From: Balneolia bacterium
Lineage (GTDB): Bacteria > Bacteroidota > Rhodothermia > Balneolales > Cyclonatronaceae
DNA: 64,000 bases
Direction: 5' to 3'
NCBI GenBank assembly: GCA_022565795.1
Contig: JAIUMA010000006.1
Span: forward strand, 1-64,000
The translations under genes were made by a program, and so were the position numbers. The stretch's first letter is position 1. Every line of letters starts with the position of its first letter. The notes under the pieces were generated by a model. The model worked only from the letters and a program-made list of their open reading frames with translations. It was not told the origin of the DNA and ran no database searches. Positions 34,726 through 41,411 of the stretch are shown one piece after another.

Positions 34726-34763
34726 AAAAAAAAGTGTAACAAATCGGGGGTTCGTGCATCATA
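34726..34763 (+). promoter_or_regulatory. 38-bp element, copy A (ECF-like promoter reading into the receiver-domain operon)
   Basis: Eight A, then a 30-base stretch beginning GTGTAACAAATCGGGGG and ending GTGCATCATA. It is identical base for base to the reverse complement of 40605-40642. Read as an ECF-type promoter it has a -35-like TGTAAC (34735-34740), a 16-base spacer and a -10-like CATC (34757-34760), 40 bases before the ATG at 34800. The whole spacer is also conserved, which is unusual for a simple promoter. Confidence 0.7.
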
Positions 34764-34799
34764 TCAATAACAACACTCAATAACTCTACTTTCAAAACA

Positions 34800-35390
34800 A
34801 TGCGAGTTCTCTTTCCAAGTACACTACCAAATATAGCTCAGGCGCCTGACGTCTCCGCTGCTTCCTACTCTCCAATTCAGCTTTGGGAAGTCTTTTTGGA
34901 GCCTTCTTCTTACGGCCCGCCTTCGACATTAGGCGAAAACTATATGATCCATCCGGCCTCCCGACTGGGTTCGTTGTCTGATGTATCTGAGTTTGGCCGC
35001 AAGCTAAAGACACAGCGCAAGCTTAAAGTACTTCACATCGAGGACACTCCTGAGATTCGCCTCATCGCAAACATTTTCCTGAAGGATGAATACGACATCC
35101 AAAGCGCATCATGTGGTGAAGAAGCCGTAGAGAAAGCATCGAAAGAGAAGTACGACATCATCCTTATGGATATCAACCTTGGAGAGGGTTGTGATGGTTT
35201 TGAAGTTAGTGAGCAGCTTAGACAGCTGCCGGGTTATGAGAATGTTGCAATCATCGCAGTTACCACGAGCAACTACCTTGAAGTAAGAGGCAGATGCATT
35301 GAAACGGGTTTCAATGCCTTCATTCAGAAGCCATTCGAAAAAAGAGACCTGAAAAATACGATTACCCAGCTCATGAGGTACTCACGTTAA
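34800..35390 (+). CDS. Stand-alone response-regulator receiver protein
   Basis: 196 residues. The receiver domain spans about residues 75-195 with the acidic pair Glu-Asp (LHIEDTPE), phosphoacceptor Asp124 (ILMDINLG), Thr (AVTTSN) and Lys (IQKPF), so all catalytic residues are present; no output domain follows. The N-terminal 75 residues are Ser/Pro-rich with no known fold; an internal start at the Met of YMIHPASRL is possible. It is the first gene behind 38-bp element copy A. No histidine kinase is adjacent; candidates would be elsewhere. Confidence 0.85.
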   Translation: MRVLFPSTLPNIAQAPDVSAASYSPIQLWEVFLEPSSYGPPSTLGENYMIHPASRLGSLSDVSEFGRKLKTQRKLKVLHIEDTPEIRLIANIFLKDEYDIQSASCGEEAVEKASKEKYDIILMDINLGEGCDGFEVSEQLRQLPGYENVAIIAVTTSNYLEVRGRCIETGFNAFIQKPFEKRDLKNTITQLMRYSR

Positions 35391-35439
35391 TATCATCGAC
35401 TAAAAACACACCTCATAGTATCCAAACTTCTTAACTAAT

Positions 35440-36240
35440 ATGTCCGCAACGAACTCACATACCTACGACCTGATTGAAGAGTATCTGTCAGGCAGTCTCA
35501 GCGAAGAGCAGACCGATATGCTCTGGGCTGAACTTCTGAGCGACGGAGATGCAATGGATTACCTTCAAACGATGTCAGCCATGAAAAAACTGGCCGGCAA
35601 CGGAGAATTCACGGTTGAAAATCCTCTGTCTGAAATAGATTTTGATTACGACAAATCCGCTTTTGAAACACCCGATTCCGAATCTGATAAACTTGCCGGT
35701 TCCATCACATACGGAAATGGTGGTTTTACCTGGAAATGGATTGCCGCAGCCCTGGTTATGATTATGGCTGCTGCCGGAATAAGCTATATGGTGCTCCAGG
35801 AAAGCACCAACGGTCAGACAGGCCCCATCGCTATGATCGAGTATGATATTTTCAGATCAGCCGGCGATGAACTGGCGCTGATGCCAAGCCTTGATGATGT
35901 CATAATGCTTTCGGCTTCAGGAGAACATGAGCAGGCGCTTGGCGTGCTTGGCGAAATACGGGCCGAGTCTGGTCTCGAAAATGATCCTCAGCTTGCTATA
36001 CTTGAAGGTTCACTTCACTTCAACGCCGGCGAATTTGAAATGGCTCTGAGCGTTTTTTCTTCAATCGATCGGTCTGTATTAAGCAGTCGTGAATACGAAG
36101 AAGTGCTCTGGTACAAAGCAAACGCAAACGTTCATGCAGGACAGACTCTTGAGGCAACCAATACGCTGCAGCAAATCATCCAAATGGATGGTTCATACAG
36201 CAGAGTCGCAAAGAACCTGTTAAACAACCTCGGCAGCTGA
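35440..36240 (+). CDS. One-TM protein with TPR-like periplasmic domain, candidate anti-sigma factor
   Basis: 266 residues. The N-terminal 60 residues (LIEEYLSGSLSEEQTDMLWA) resemble the helical cytoplasmic part of anti-sigma and FecR-like proteins, where a YLsGeLs.ee pattern is common; no zinc-binding HxxxCxxC is present. A single membrane helix (about 99-119) is followed by a periplasmic region with two or three TPR-like helical pairs (about 150-260). Next to an ECF-like sigma and a CHAT peptidase regulon, a role as membrane anti-sigma or receptor is a reasonable inference. It follows the receiver gene by 49 bases. Confidence 0.6.
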   Translation: MSATNSHTYDLIEEYLSGSLSEEQTDMLWAELLSDGDAMDYLQTMSAMKKLAGNGEFTVENPLSEIDFDYDKSAFETPDSESDKLAGSITYGNGGFTWKWIAAALVMIMAAAGISYMVLQESTNGQTGPIAMIEYDIFRSAGDELALMPSLDDVIMLSASGEHEQALGVLGEIRAESGLENDPQLAILEGSLHFNAGEFEMALSVFSSIDRSVLSSREYEEVLWYKANANVHAGQTLEATNTLQQIIQMDGSYSRVAKNLLNNLGS

Positions 36241-36303
36241 TTCATGCTGCCGGATAACAATCCAACAACCAATTTTAAGCTTAGCACCTTACTGATAGTG
36301 TAG

Positions 36304-36328
36304 ACCGGCAGGTTTTGCAGCCGGTTTT
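36304..36328 (+). terminator. Terminator after the receiver/TPR operon
   Basis: ACCGGC (36304-36309) and GCCGGT (36320-36325) pair around a 10-base loop, followed by T. A 14-base perfect palindrome TGCAGCGCGCTGCA follows directly, and CAGCGCGC recurs inverted 23 bases later as GCGCGCTG. Confidence 0.6.
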
Positions 36329-36448
36329 ATATGCAGCGCGCTGCACCGACACCTAATAAATAATGCGCGCTGTATTCTTTTCTCTTGATAAAAAACACTC
36401 GTTGACCCGAGTTCTTAACTTGCTCCCAGGACGGCTATTACCTACATT

Positions 36449-36519
36449 AGCGGTTGTTTCTTCAACGTACAACGCGAGCTTCGGCCCGCACTGTGCCAGG
36501 AGAAGCAGCCGCTTTTTTT
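36449..36519 (+). ncRNA. Possible structured RNA end or terminator in a long gene-free stretch
   Basis: The 36241-36885 gap (645 bases) has no credible ORF. Within it AGCGGTTGTTTCT (from 36449) pairs with AGAAGCAGCCGCT (to 36513) using G-U pairs, encloses a GC-rich loop of about 36 bases, and is followed by seven T (36513-36519). This looks like the 3-prime end of a small RNA, or a second terminator of the upstream operon. I see no matching known RNA family. Low confidence. Confidence 0.3.
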
Positions 36520-36885
36520 GTGTAGGTGTAAGGGAATGAGCCGGCATTTCCAGTCAGACAATTCAAACCTTTGATGATTCAGGCTAGGGTGAAAGCGCCC
36601 GATACCACGCGAACAGACAATAGGATTGGTATATTTGACAGGTATTCTTAGAATCTGCCTTAACAGGATAAGGAATCCGATTCACGTGGATGAAGAGAAA
36701 AGTACTCCAGAAATATCCGGGTAAATGGCTGACCTGAGACATCAATTGCCCGCTTCGAAAAGTAATGGTTTCAACTTTCTGCAGATCGTTCTACCAGACA
36801 TGCAGAGGTATGGCGAATTTACCGATTCGATGAGGATTGGGTAAGATAAGCTGCCTTTCAAACGGCTCAGACTGTCTTGTGTAAA

Positions 36886-39800
36886 TCAGGCAGCTTGTGA
36901 AGAGCTGTTTTTTCTGAGTTTTACACGTGCAAGCTGAAGCAGAATCAGTATACCGGCTATGCTGAGGGAGACAGCGGCTATTTTTATAAACCCGGTTCCA
37001 GAGTGTACGGGCGCAATATTACCATGCATTACATAGCCGCCCCAAAGAAAAGGGTCGCTGTTCACATTATTCAGATAGTCCAGACGCGCCTGTCTGAGCG
37101 ATTCTGCCTTATTTGATCCGGTATCGAGATTCGCAAAGAAGCGGCTCGTAATTTGTGATGCGGTTTGATCTTTAACCGGCCAAAGGTTCATTAACAGGCT
37201 TTGGGCTCCTGCGTATGAAAATGCCCTGGAAAGCCCCAGAATTCCTGAGCCGGCCAGATATTCGCCCTGGGCCGATTCGCAAGAGCTGAGCACAACCAGG
37301 TCCGCGCTGAGGTCAATATCGAAGAGATTATAGGCCCGAACGATGCCGTCGTCGGTAGTCTGATTGCCGTTACCTGCTTCGTAGATTGCCTGGTGCAGAT
37401 AAAGAGCCGAAAACAGCGGGTCTTCGTCCTCAACGACACTGTGCGTGGCAAGGTGCAGTATGCGGGAATTGCCGGCGACCTCATAAAATCTGCTGCGCGT
37501 GCTTTCTTCATTCAGAAAAGTTAAAGCGGGCTGAATTTGCTGAAGACTTGAGGCGCTTCTGTAAATTTCCTGTGGCGCAAAAGGAAGATTGGAAAGCGTC
37601 TGATGTCCGGCCGTTCTGAAGTCACTTAGTCCGAATCCGGCATATCCGTAGGTGAAGTCAGTTCGTCTCTGCTGAGGTTTGGTTAGCAGTTCGTTTGCCG
37701 TATTAAGGTAGCTGATGGATGTTTTCTCCAGCAGAAAGGTTGTCGAGCCAAAACTGTTTGCCGAGTTAGGCGGGGCAACTGGCAGAATTTCGAAAGGAAT
37801 CTGGTAAAAGCTTCCGTCAGGAACAATGTAGATATGACGATAATCTTCAGGATTGAGATTGGCGAATACGATGCGGTAAATTTCGTGCAGCTTGTTGAGG
37901 TCCGTCGTTCCGGGTCCAAAGCTCAGCTGTGCATCGCGTATAAGCTGGTATAATCGGGCGGAATCGTCGTGCCTTACAGATTCAATATTTCTTCTGGTGA
38001 TATGGGTTTGAAACACCTGCTCATTTTGGATGGAGAAGTAAAGAATGATTTCCCCACGGCCGAGCGAGCGCTGTACGCCGGATATTTCGAAGCTCTCCTG
38101 ACTTTCCGGCACAAACGGCGAGATGCGGTCAAGCAGCTGGCTTCTTCTGTTAACTGCATTGAGTAGATCGTTGCTTATTTGAATGCGTTCGGGTCCTTCG
38201 GCATCGGCCAGCTGTCGGCGAAGCCGCTGAATTCTGTTTCCAAGGGCAAAGTCCAGCAGCAGCTCCTCTTCATTAAGGATAGTTGACTTCAACAGTGGAT
38301 TATTGAAAAATGCGGAGCGTGAGATAGTCCGAAACTGCTCGTTTACCGCAAGAAGCTCCGCATAGAGCCCATTTTCGTACAGCAAATTGTGGTGAATACG
38401 GTAGGCTTCGGAGAACTCCGGATCTAGCCTCATCTGTCCGGTTTGGGAGTCGGCACTTTCACGAAGCCAGGCGGTAATTTCTGCAATTAAATAGCGTGAT
38501 GACTCCAGAGCCTCCTCAATAAGCCCGCGTTCCAGAAGCAGTTTATGCTGCACATTCTGTGAGGTAACCGCAATATTAAAAGAGAGCATATCCGGCGAAA
38601 CTGATGCATAACGCGATGTAAGCTCCCGGGCCTCATCGTAAAGTCCCGCTTCAACGTAAAGATCGGCCAGGCGAAACGCGGTGGATGCGGCACGAACAAC
38701 GTCATCCCGCTGCTCGCTTACGGATAGTGCCTGTAAAAAATAGGATGATGCCATCTCGAAATTATCTTTACGGCTGTAGGTTCGCGCAATTTCGATGAGT
38801 GACTGTATGTTATCGAGATAGCGGTCCATCTCTTCGGTAATTTGTCTGGCTTCAGTCAGGTACTCAAGGGCCTGATCGTACCTGCCGAGACTCTCCCGGG
38901 TATGTACACCCATGGATATGAGGATGGATGGGATCTCAGACCGAAGTTCATTTCTGCTGGCAAGGCTAAGGGCTTCGGATATGTAGTTAAAAGCAAGCTC
39001 AGGATTGCGGTTTCTGCGGTAGAAAATATGCAGGTTTCGAAGGATGGAGAGCTGGTACTGAAGATTGTTTTCCTGAACGGCAATATCATAGGCCTCAAGC
39101 TGGAACTCAATGTACCGGTCGAAGCTGCCGGAATTAAGGTAGGTGATAGCCAGGTTATTAAACAGGGCTGTACGGTAGCGGCTGTCTACAAGGAACTCTT
39201 CCAGTTCATAAACGGCCTCGTACTCCTGCCGGGCCAGATTCACGTTGCCCAGGCGAAACAGCACGCCCGCATAGTCCATGCGTGAATTCAGAAGTTCTGT
39301 AACGTCGCCCAACTCCTGAGCAAGCGGTATGATTTGCTCATTATACATACGCAGCGCCTCATGGTAATATCCGGAGACGGTAGAAGAAAACGCGATGTAG
39401 TTGAGGAAAAAGAGGGTATCGTAGGAAGGGGGGAGTTGGTTCGAATTAAGAAAATAACGTCCGAGTGAGTGAACTTTTTGGAAGTCATTTAATCTATAAT
39501 AACCAGTGATAATAGTTCTGGCTTTTAAATTCCCCCACAATTCATTCAATCTGAATGCTTCATCTAAAGAATCAGTCCAATGATTAAGTAGACTGCGAAT
39601 ATCGGAGACTTGATTAGAATCAATGTCGAGTCTATCAAATAAATGGAAGTGGCAAGGCGAGAAATCTACAGTATTAAAGCTATAAGAAATTTCAGTGTTT
39701 GGGTCGAACTTAGCAAGAGTATTTACTAATTGTGAGGCATGAGAACTTGATAAAGCTTCAATAATTGACTGGCGGGTATTGAAATCGGCTTGATAGATCG

Positions 39801-40077
39801 CAAAATCTAAGTAGACTAAGTCACCTTTCTTCTCATAATGATTTATGAAGTTTGATGTTACCAGTTTTAAAAACTCATCCTCATACTCGGGGTAATTGAA
39901 GTTTTTAAAGTCAAGGTTTGCTAATTCTTTTGAAGCGTCAGAAAAAGCTTTGGCCCAATTCTTTGAAACAGCAATGTAGTCAGAAGAAGTTGAAAGGCTA
40001 TGGCACGCTTGATTCCAACCAAAAACTGAGACTGGTAACAATGCGAAAAGTAAAGCGATAAGGAATCTATTCAGCAT
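36886..40077 (-). CDS. Secreted, membrane-anchored TPR-CHAT protein (predicted cysteine peptidase)
   Basis: CHAT domains are caspase-like cysteine peptidases. ATG 40077 gives a signal peptide (MLNRFLIALLFALLPVSVFG) and 1063 residues; GTG 40101 would add eight. A unique N-terminal region (about 20-180) precedes a long array of TPR helices (about 180-560) and the CHAT domain (about 690-1010). The catalytic dyad is visible: His879 (ILHLATHS) and Cys933 (VVLSSCESAQGEYLAGSG). A C-terminal membrane helix (about 1016-1036) and a Lys/Arg tail follow. Topology: TPR and CHAT parts in the periplasm, anchored in the inner membrane, unlike the cytoplasmic CHAT proteins of CRISPR and defence systems. It lies behind the small lipoprotein and 38-bp element copy B. 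The N-terminal 560 bases are more AT-rich than the remainder. Confidence 0.92.
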   Translation of the reverse strand: MLNRFLIALLFALLPVSVFGWNQACHSLSTSSDYIAVSKNWAKAFSDASKELANLDFKNFNYPEYEDEFLKLVTSNFINHYEKKGDLVYLDFAIYQADFNTRQSIIEALSSSHASQLVNTLAKFDPNTEISYSFNTVDFSPCHFHLFDRLDIDSNQVSDIRSLLNHWTDSLDEAFRLNELWGNLKARTIITGYYRLNDFQKVHSLGRYFLNSNQLPPSYDTLFFLNYIAFSSTVSGYYHEALRMYNEQIIPLAQELGDVTELLNSRMDYAGVLFRLGNVNLARQEYEAVYELEEFLVDSRYRTALFNNLAITYLNSGSFDRYIEFQLEAYDIAVQENNLQYQLSILRNLHIFYRRNRNPELAFNYISEALSLASRNELRSEIPSILISMGVHTRESLGRYDQALEYLTEARQITEEMDRYLDNIQSLIEIARTYSRKDNFEMASSYFLQALSVSEQRDDVVRAASTAFRLADLYVEAGLYDEARELTSRYASVSPDMLSFNIAVTSQNVQHKLLLERGLIEEALESSRYLIAEITAWLRESADSQTGQMRLDPEFSEAYRIHHNLLYENGLYAELLAVNEQFRTISRSAFFNNPLLKSTILNEEELLLDFALGNRIQRLRRQLADAEGPERIQISNDLLNAVNRRSQLLDRISPFVPESQESFEISGVQRSLGRGEIILYFSIQNEQVFQTHITRRNIESVRHDDSARLYQLIRDAQLSFGPGTTDLNKLHEIYRIVFANLNPEDYRHIYIVPDGSFYQIPFEILPVAPPNSANSFGSTTFLLEKTSISYLNTANELLTKPQQRRTDFTYGYAGFGLSDFRTAGHQTLSNLPFAPQEIYRSASSLQQIQPALTFLNEESTRSRFYEVAGNSRILHLATHSVVEDEDPLFSALYLHQAIYEAGNGNQTTDDGIVRAYNLFDIDLSADLVVLSSCESAQGEYLAGSGILGLSRAFSYAGAQSLLMNLWPVKDQTASQITSRFFANLDTGSNKAESLRQARLDYLNNVNSDPFLWGGYVMHGNIAPVHSGTGFIKIAAVSLSIAGILILLQLARVKLRKNSSSQAA

Positions 40078-40126
40078 AGATTCCAATATCGCAAATTTCA
40101 CATTATTAGTCTGAAAAAATTTTTAA

Positions 40127-40384
40127 TTATCTGTCTCTGTATCTATCGCGAGGAGTTACAATGATAATATCTTCCTGGTCGCCGTCGCCGAAGATTACTT
40201 CACCATCTTCTTCTGTTGCGCGTGTTACCTTGTGGCTGTTGAAATCGATCTCAGTAATTACAGCTTCGTCCTGTACGCTGCCGTCGATGTCAGAAAGGTT
40301 GGCATCGGAAATACCAGCACAGCCGGTGAAGAAAAGAGCAGCAAGAAGAGCAACAGAAACGCGAGAGTTGAAGAAATTTTTCAT
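40127..40384 (-). CDS. Small lipoprotein upstream of the TPR-CHAT gene
   Basis: 85 residues from ATG 40384. Lipobox FFTGC (Cys22) followed by Ala-Gly, then an acidic mature part with EVIFGDGDQEDIIIVTPRD and an Arg-Asp tail. No known family. It is the first gene behind 38-bp element copy B and 49 bases before the CHAT start, so it could be a ligand, substrate or partner of the CHAT protein. A longer in-frame start upstream was rejected because it has no signal peptide. Confidence 0.75.
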   Translation of the reverse strand: MKNFFNSRVSVALLAALFFTGCAGISDANLSDIDGSVQDEAVITEIDFNSHKVTRATEEDGEVIFGDGDQEDIIIVTPRDRYRDR

Positions 40385-40604
40385 GACTAATATGGATTTG
40401 GTATAGAGTTGTATTGAATTAAGTTCGTTGAAAAAGAAGCCATCCCGGATACCGGAACATTCTTCCTTTGGATAAAAACGAAAAGGTAATTCACATACTG
40501 AGAGAATGTGTTGCACACAGTCCTTGTATGTTTACCACGACATTTTATTCCAAAGGCTGAAATGTCAGCATTCGGATGAACCCTTTTTTTGTGTTACTTA
40601 CTAC

Positions 40605-40642
40605 TATGATGCACGAACCCCCGATTTGTTACACTTTTTTTT
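40605..40642 (-). promoter_or_regulatory. 38-bp element, copy B (ECF-like promoter reading into the lipoprotein-CHAT operon)
   Basis: Reverse complement identical to 34726-34763 over all 38 bases. On the minus strand TGTAAC lies at 40633-40628 and CATC at 40611-40608. It would give a leader of a little over 200 bases before the lipoprotein ATG at 40384. The match ends sharply on both sides. Confidence 0.7.
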
Positions 40643-40758
40643 AAACTTTTTTTTCGAAATAAATGACAGACTCGAATTGCTGGTTTGTAAGTACAAATAA
40701 ATCAATTATATCGGCTTCTGTTTTTTTTCTTATTTTTTTCAAAAAAAAATCTCCAAAG

Positions 40759-40789
40759 TTTGTTAATTCGGCGCCCGACCTTATTTTAG
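40759..40789 (+). promoter_or_regulatory. Housekeeping promoter of the ECF-like sigma gene
   Basis: TTTG (40759-40762), 19 bases, TATTTTAG (40782-40789), one base off TAnnTTTG. It lies 50 bases before the sigma start and reads away from element copy B. The remainder of the 454-base gap (40385-40838) is AT-rich leader without a gene. Confidence 0.55.
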
Positions 40790-40838
40790 AGCCGTGAGTA
40801 ACAACCATATCACCTTACCTTAACGAGCCAACAAAACG

Positions 40839-41411
40839 TTGAGCGACGCTAAAATTACAAGTACCTATTTTGCCGAACTGATTCGAGAGAACAGGACTGC
40901 CGAGCTTAACAGAGTTTCAGTGCTCTTGTGTGAGAGGATGTCCTTATTTCTACGAACCGTTTACAAAGCCACTCCGTCTCTCTCTGATGAATGTGCCCAG
41001 GCGGCATTTGAGAAAGTTTATACCGGCGTGAAGTCAGGCGAAATAAAAGATCTTGAGAATATGTTCGGATACTGTATTAATGCAGTAAAGAATGAATACA
41101 AGATGGCGCTTCGAAAGGATAGCAAGAGTAAAGAGTTCGACGCGGAGGAAGTTGAGTCGGAAGGATATATCCAGCCTCCGGATATCTTTGATGTGCTGAG
41201 CGACAGAGAACGGGAAATAGCCCTCAAATCCTGCGTAAGTCAGCTCAAAGACAGCAGAAGGGATTTATTTTTGCGTATATTATCCCTTATTAACACCCCG
41301 GAAAAAGAAGCCGCTGCCAAACTGAATATGTCGCATGCGCAGTACCGGACCCAAAAGTCACGGATTATATCAGTATTAAGAGAATGCGTGAGTCAGAAGC
41401 TTGGTAGCTAG
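40839..41411 (+). CDS. ECF-like RNA polymerase sigma factor (divergent from the CHAT operon)
   Basis: 190 residues with TTG start at 40839 (no in-frame ATG nearby). A diverged region 2 (about 30-100: SDECAQAAFEKVYTGV, then MFGYCINAVKNEYKMALRK) and a region 4 helix-turn-helix (about 135-185: TPEKEAAAKLNMSHAQYRTQKSRI) are separated by an acidic linker. It differs strongly from the second ECF factor in this window. Its gene faces away from the lipoprotein-CHAT operon; no anti-sigma gene follows, and pgk starts 33 bases after the stop. It is the best candidate to read the 38-bp elements. Confidence 0.82.
   Translation: MSDAKITSTYFAELIRENRTAELNRVSVLLCERMSLFLRTVYKATPSLSDECAQAAFEKVYTGVKSGEIKDLENMFGYCINAVKNEYKMALRKDSKSKEFDAEEVESEGYIQPPDIFDVLSDREREIALKSCVSQLKDSRRDLFLRILSLINTPEKEAAAKLNMSHAQYRTQKSRIISVLRECVSQKLGS

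Follow-up and report, generated by a model that had tools for sequence, protein, structure and literature searches.

A conserved Balneolales locus suggests CRISPR-independent, envelope-linked control of an ECF sigma factor by a periplasmic TPR-CHAT peptidase

The window analyzed here is a 64,000-nucleotide stretch (positions 1 to 64,000, forward strand) of contig JAIUMA010000006.1 from the 3.6-Mb genome of a Balneolia bacterium (assembly GCA_022565795.1), and it carries, between positions 34726 and 41411, genes for an extracytoplasmic function (ECF) sigma factor, a probable anti-sigma factor with one transmembrane (TM) segment, a periplasmic TPR-CHAT peptidase, a short lipoprotein, and a receiver-only (REC) protein. 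We propose, at a probability of roughly 0.55, that these genes form an envelope-signaling regulon in which the CHAT peptidase cuts the membrane anti-sigma factor after Arg139, the site-2 protease RseP completes the release, and the sigma factor is thereby freed. The parts of the locus are as follows; those named in a first-pass annotation made from the sequence had been placed correctly.

34726..34763, plus strand: TGTAACA-type promoter element of the REC/anti-sigma operon (TGTAACAAATCGGGGGTTCGTGCATCATA core), from sequence
34800..35390, plus strand: REC protein, 196 amino acids, from family search
35440..36240, plus strand: probable anti-sigma factor, a one-TM/TPR protein, from a structural model and weak TPR matches
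35854..35859, plus strand: codons for Arg139-Ser140, the predicted scissile bond (IEYDIFR-S), from conservation and the model, with cleavage inferred
36886..40101, minus strand: periplasmic TPR-CHAT peptidase, from family search and a model
40127..40384, minus strand: short lipoprotein, 85 amino acids, with a lipobox TGC codon and a conserved C-terminal tail, from sequence and relatives
40605..40642, minus strand: second, identical promoter element, of the lipoprotein/TPR-CHAT operon, from sequence
40839..41411, plus strand: ECF sigma factor, 190 amino acids, TTG start, from profile matches

The genes recur together across the order. We searched an order-level sample of 129 genomes with the sigma and anti-sigma sequences and retrieved 40 neighborhoods, taking as a full-length CHAT ortholog any protein that scored above 450 bits with the CHAT profile. 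By this measure, about 94 of the 129 Balneolales genomes encode a full-length TPR-CHAT protein, and none was found among the approximately 390 other genomes of the class and phylum that were searched, where the top score was 307 bits. The carriers, by named collection, are Balneolales (Rhodohalobacter, Fodinibius, Aliifodinibius, Gracilimonas, Balneola, and metagenome-assembled genomes). In the 40 neighborhoods, the common layout, seen in families f1, f2, f3, and f5, has the REC and anti-sigma genes converging on a TPR-CHAT gene preceded by one or more lipoprotein genes, with the sigma gene beyond these and facing away from them. The anti-sigma gene is the convergent neighbor of the CHAT gene in essentially every locus with sufficient flanking sequence, and in two complete congeneric genomes that lack the CHAT gene, the sigma and anti-sigma matches are at the paralog level only. 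The first-pass annotation had let its proposal stand or fall with conserved co-occurrence in relatives, and across the Balneolales this co-occurrence holds; from its distribution, we take the gene set to be an ancestral locus of the order. In the window, a 645-bp gap (36241 to 36885) separates the convergent stop codons of the anti-sigma and CHAT genes; in many relatives, these open reading frames abut.

The 36886-40101 product matches the CHAT family (PF12770, E value of 4e-52) together with TPRs, and its translation may begin at an ATG eight codons inside the GTG-initiated open reading frame, which would correct the original call. It comprises a signal peptide, TPRs at about residues 160 to 660, the CHAT domain at 738 to 1028, and a C-terminal TM segment at 1037 to 1055. 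His883 and Cys941 are invariant in all of the aligned orthologs, and the CHAT fold with this His/Cys dyad identifies the protein as a predicted CHAT peptidase. The signal peptide and C-terminal TM segment are also conserved, which puts the protease domain on the periplasmic side, next to the inner membrane, and bears out the envelope location that had been suggested for it. The best structural matches to its model, found with Foldseek, are the Myxococcus anti-sigma factor DdvA, human separase, and the Craspase TPR-CHAT protein Csx29, and a sequence profile of the CHAT domain alone finds DdvA at an E value of 8e-5. Among phages, CHAT relatives amounted to one weak match. A second association recurs in many relatives, in which about 0.25 to 3.5 kb separate a second sigma-anti-sigma operon from one secreted TPR-CHAT gene or a pair of them; the CHAT proteins of nine such loci have a signal peptide and no C-terminal TM segment.

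The predicted substrate of this peptidase is the 35440-36240 product, modeled as a confident three-helix N-terminal domain (residues 1 to 55), a disordered linker, a TM segment (98 to 121), and a periplasmic TPR domain (148 to 265). This architecture makes the protein a probable membrane anti-sigma factor that would bind the sigma factor through its N-terminal domain. Paralogs with the same architecture directly follow a second sigma gene in nearly all of the loci fetched, the classic sigma/anti-sigma gene order. Outside the TM segment, Arg139 is alone among the residues from 41 to 166 in being kept at a level of at least 90%. It is invariant in 77 of 77 orthologs, is followed by Ser or Gly in 73, and sits about 18 residues past the TM segment in a low-confidence loop of the model on the periplasmic side. 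The surrounding pattern is (I/L)(E/D)x(D/E)xxR followed by S. Separase cuts after Arg with acidic residues upstream, and Arg139-Ser140 is a plausible candidate cleavage site. A homolog of RseP, which would make the second cut, is encoded in the genome.

Between the promoter and the CHAT gene lie one to six tandem short lipoprotein genes in all 45 testable loci, so that the single lipoprotein of the first-pass annotation is present but is one member of a conserved tandem family that had been missed. The family had no match in the family libraries searched. The copies are nearly identical within a genome, and the C-terminal tail usually reads hydrophobic-hydrophobic-x-(R/K)-Pro. In five loci, three to six copies are near identical within the genome yet divergent between genomes, suggesting concerted evolution. 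We infer that the lipoproteins are the best candidates for the ligand of a periplasmic TPR domain. One bolder form of our proposal, which we hold tentatively and consider somewhat unlikely, makes the CHAT protein a separase-like, dedicated site-1 protease that cuts after the invariant Arg and whose activity is set by the tails of lipoproteins made by the regulon itself; if this were true, caspase-type proteolysis would let the cell gauge the state of its lipoproteins or envelope.

The same features have also to be weighed for two readings in which the anti-sigma factor is not the substrate. The lipoproteins might instead be the main CHAT substrates, releasing peptides that signal and are read by the sigma pair. 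They do always lie just upstream of the CHAT gene, in up to six near-identical copies, and have a basic C-terminal tail, but we consider this highly improbable, given that the usual (R/K)-Pro is a poor bond for Arg-specific proteases, that some tails (in two loci) have no basic residue, and that the Arg motif of the anti-sigma factor is better conserved. We also compared the tail with the anti-sigma cleavage motif and found the idea that one copies the other unconvincing, as the residues around the Arg differ and Pro follows it. Alternatively, the CHAT protein could act as a scaffold without cutting, with the periplasmic TPRs of the two proteins binding each other or competing for lipoprotein tails and the signal passing by conformational change. 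That both proteins carry periplasmic TPRs, a kind of repeat that binds C-terminal peptides, that the lipoprotein tail is conserved, and that DdvA is a fused protein would all suit such a scaffold, which would nevertheless have no need of the catalytic His and Cys that are invariant in all aligned orthologs, and we regard this explanation as improbable.

Returning to the proposed regulon in which the anti-sigma factor would be cut, we examined the 38-bp element that the first-pass annotation had noticed upstream of both operons. The two copies are identical, the element did not occur in shuffles of the window, and a search for its 30-bp core that allowed up to three mismatches matched the genome at exactly two places. 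It is one instance of a motif, TGTAACA-N15/16-[CA]TCNT, derived from the upstream regions of the loci. This motif is present in 60 of the 74 distinct upstream regions of the REC/anti-sigma operon (shuffle mean, 0.14) and in 39 of the 45 of the lipoprotein/CHAT operon (shuffle mean, 4.2, probably an overestimate, since the shuffler is able to give back an unshuffled sequence). No motif points toward the sigma gene in any of the 45 regions, and we rejected autoregulation of the sigma gene on this ground. The wording of the −10 box varies by lineage (GCATCMT, ACTCTTGT, or ACTCCT), and the boxes of the two operons in one genome agree with each other (mean Hamming distance of 1.45 versus 2.66 when permuted, with 0 of 5,000 permutations as low), an agreement to which shared ancestry contributes. 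The shared −35/−10 element upstream of the target operons marks a predicted ECF regulon with a common promoter.

This regulon appears to extend beyond the locus. The genome has six motif sites and none for a reversed control pattern. The four sites outside the locus lie on contigs C16, upstream of a lipoprotein operon with a DUF1573 gene; C17, upstream of a gene for an AraC-type helix-turn-helix protein; and C109, which has two, one of them upstream of a lipoprotein/DUF1573 operon homologous to that on C16. These two operons are paralogous, each encoding a 383-amino-acid lipoprotein, a protein with a conserved CxxSxCMFTEGEG motif, and a DUF1573 protein, and each lies behind a regulon promoter. 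We found no motif sites in the two congeners without the locus and one to seven per genome in 11 of 12 other genomes tested. Twelve Fodinibius-like genomes together contain 59 sites of the ACTCTTGT form, against a single match to the control, and the genes downstream of these sites are varied, encoding lipoproteins, small helix-turn-helix proteins, and pilin-like proteins. One genome has three regulon promoters, each before a small protein starting with MKNGDKQ; these proteins then differ in their helix-turn-helix domains (LuxR-like or AraC-like), so that a shared leader is joined to swapped DNA-binding parts. In three genomes, the motif lies about 390 bp upstream of a gene for the pilin-like protein MGQQQLLLVILVTIIVGIATVVAINIFG.

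Taken together, these features suggest the following sequence of events. The one-TM protein would hold the sigma factor at the membrane. A signal from the envelope, with the short lipoproteins and the periplasmic TPR domains as its probable relay, would then lead the CHAT peptidase (His883/Cys941) to cut the juxtamembrane loop of the anti-sigma factor after Arg139. RseP would then complete release of the cytoplasmic part. The free sigma factor would activate the lipoprotein/CHAT operon and, as negative feedback, the REC/anti-sigma operon; it would also activate envelope and helix-turn-helix genes elsewhere in the genome, and the receiver protein would be an optional extra input. The first-pass annotation had already proposed that the CHAT peptidase frees the sigma factor by cutting the anti-sigma factor and that sigma activates both operons. 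Support for the cut is indirect, consisting of the invariant loop Arg, the invariant His and Cys, and the precedent of DdvA; both operons do have promoters that look sigma dependent, and the wider regulon sites had been overlooked.

Several observations weigh against this proposal. The anti-sigma-like architecture that had been suspected is present, with its three-helix N-terminal domain, TM segment, and TPRs, but family scores are weak: zf-HC2 matched the N-terminal domain in 6 of 21 cases and anti-sigma hidden Markov models matched in 3 and 2 of 25. A library search of the whole protein gave only weak TPR matches, Foldseek of the model returned TPR proteins only, and a profile of the N-terminal domain matched no anti-sigma chain in the PDB. 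The identification of the 38-bp element as a conserved ECF-type promoter comes from sequence comparison, and the regulon outside the locus is not alike between genera. The loop Arg is present in 10 of 10 paralogous anti-sigma factors with a secreted CHAT protein nearby but also in 8 of 11 without CHAT in the flanks fetched, a difference that is not significant; therefore, the Arg is not strictly tied to a neighboring CHAT gene. The three Arg-less paralogs have no CHAT gene in the available sequence (two of these contigs are short). One of the three belongs to the window genome's own second sigma/anti-sigma pair, on contig C13, where Glu replaces the loop Arg and a CHAT gene is likewise absent from the vicinity. 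The idea that the Arg motif is exclusive to anti-sigma factors with a neighboring CHAT gene is consistent with this test and was not retained, as the result is not significant; the pattern fits the cleavage model without proving it.

Finally, the CHAT gene is itself a regulon target, and the peptidase could be an effector. In that case, the sigma/anti-sigma pair would run the regulon, the CHAT protein would process other periplasmic proteins (e.g., the lipoprotein or DUF1573 proteins), and another site-1 protease would remove the anti-sigma factor. The regulon promoter on the CHAT operon in almost every genome, the envelope proteins among the other regulon members, and the presence of RseP, and hence of a general proteolysis route, all accord with such a role. 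We nonetheless judge it unlikely because no genes of the locus are closer neighbors than those for the CHAT protein and the anti-sigma factor, which converge in essentially every genome, because a single Arg in a flexible loop of the anti-sigma factor never varies, and because DdvA joins an anti-sigma factor and a CHAT domain in one chain.

The diverged, ECF-like character that had been ascribed to the sigma gene was corroborated by a family profile, whose matches across sigma regions 2 and 4 are to chains of RpoE, SigH, and SigW (against RpoE 2q1z, positions 4 to 175, 6e-6). The window protein alone scores 39.9 bits with TIGR02937, slightly below the 42.9 cutoff, and some family members match Sigma70_r2 and r4. 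With about 190 amino acids and sigma-70 regions 2 and 4 without region 3, the 40839-41411 product is by these matches an ECF sigma factor. In 47 of 59 calls, the first start codon in the sigma open reading frame is TTG, which may keep sigma translation low. In the REC protein, a receiver domain was matched, with the phosphoacceptor Asp and C-terminal Lys-Pro retained. Its gene is present in the window operon, as annotated, and is missing from many f2 loci; because of this absence, which the first-pass annotation had missed, we leave the receiver out of the core.

The closest known system is DdvS/DdvA of Myxococcus xanthus (PDB 8rot and 8rw5), which likewise links an ECF sigma factor to a TPR-CHAT domain through a transmembrane anti-sigma factor and in which DdvA retains the CHAT His and Cys. 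DdvA, however, has the anti-sigma, TM, and TPR-CHAT parts in one polypeptide, whereas the Balneolales loci all have two separate genes in convergent operons, are not of the fused type, and also encode a conserved set of short lipoproteins and, optionally, a receiver. DdvS has as its target a defense island of CRISPR and the cyclic oligonucleotide-based antiphage signaling system (CBASS) (PMC12288465). In Craspase (Csx29/Csx30/CASP-sigma), inhibitor cleavage has been proposed to release an ECF sigma factor (PMC10028731), and the likeness extends to a TPR-CHAT peptidase paired with a sigma factor and inhibitor and to a fold match. Csx29, however, is a cytoplasmic protein attached to an RNA-guided effector, whereas the Balneolales CHAT protein is secreted and membrane anchored and its inhibitor is a one-TM TPR protein. 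We found no match to RAMP family proteins in the genome, no CRISPR repeat array in the window, and, with PADLOC, nothing beyond TPR-type models. Because the genome has no RAMP genes, we rejected a type III-E CRISPR/Craspase relative, in keeping with the CRISPR independence originally suggested. The locus also resembles the RseA/DegS/RseP sigma-E pathway in its one-TM anti-sigma factor, predicted juxtamembrane periplasmic site-1 cut, and RseP, but in place of a serine PDZ protease it has, as candidate site-1 protease, a TPR-bearing cysteine peptidase of the CHAT type. Separase (peptidase C50) has a related fold with a helical-repeat platform but is eukaryotic, acts on cohesin, and is not secreted. 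In the open-access library searched, we found CHAT domains and ECF factors together only in the Craspase paper (PMC10028731), the DdvA and ECF classification papers being outside that scope.

TPR-CHAT proteases in bacteria are known mainly from CRISPR Craspase, where the link to an ECF sigma factor was found. The Balneolales locus repeats this scheme of peptidase, inhibitor, and sigma factor independently of CRISPR and on the periplasmic side, and it is conserved across the order. Its promoter is defined, and catalytic residues and a predicted scissile bond can be named, so that what non-CRISPR CHAT proteases cut becomes directly testable, and a conserved family of short lipoproteins can now be assigned a likely pathway. 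Considered alongside DdvA, the locus suggests that CHAT proteins control ECF sigma factors more broadly in envelope signaling, and the CRISPR version may be related to this wider theme. It further suggests that a caspase-like protease could switch on genes in response to the cell envelope by a route that does not involve CRISPR.

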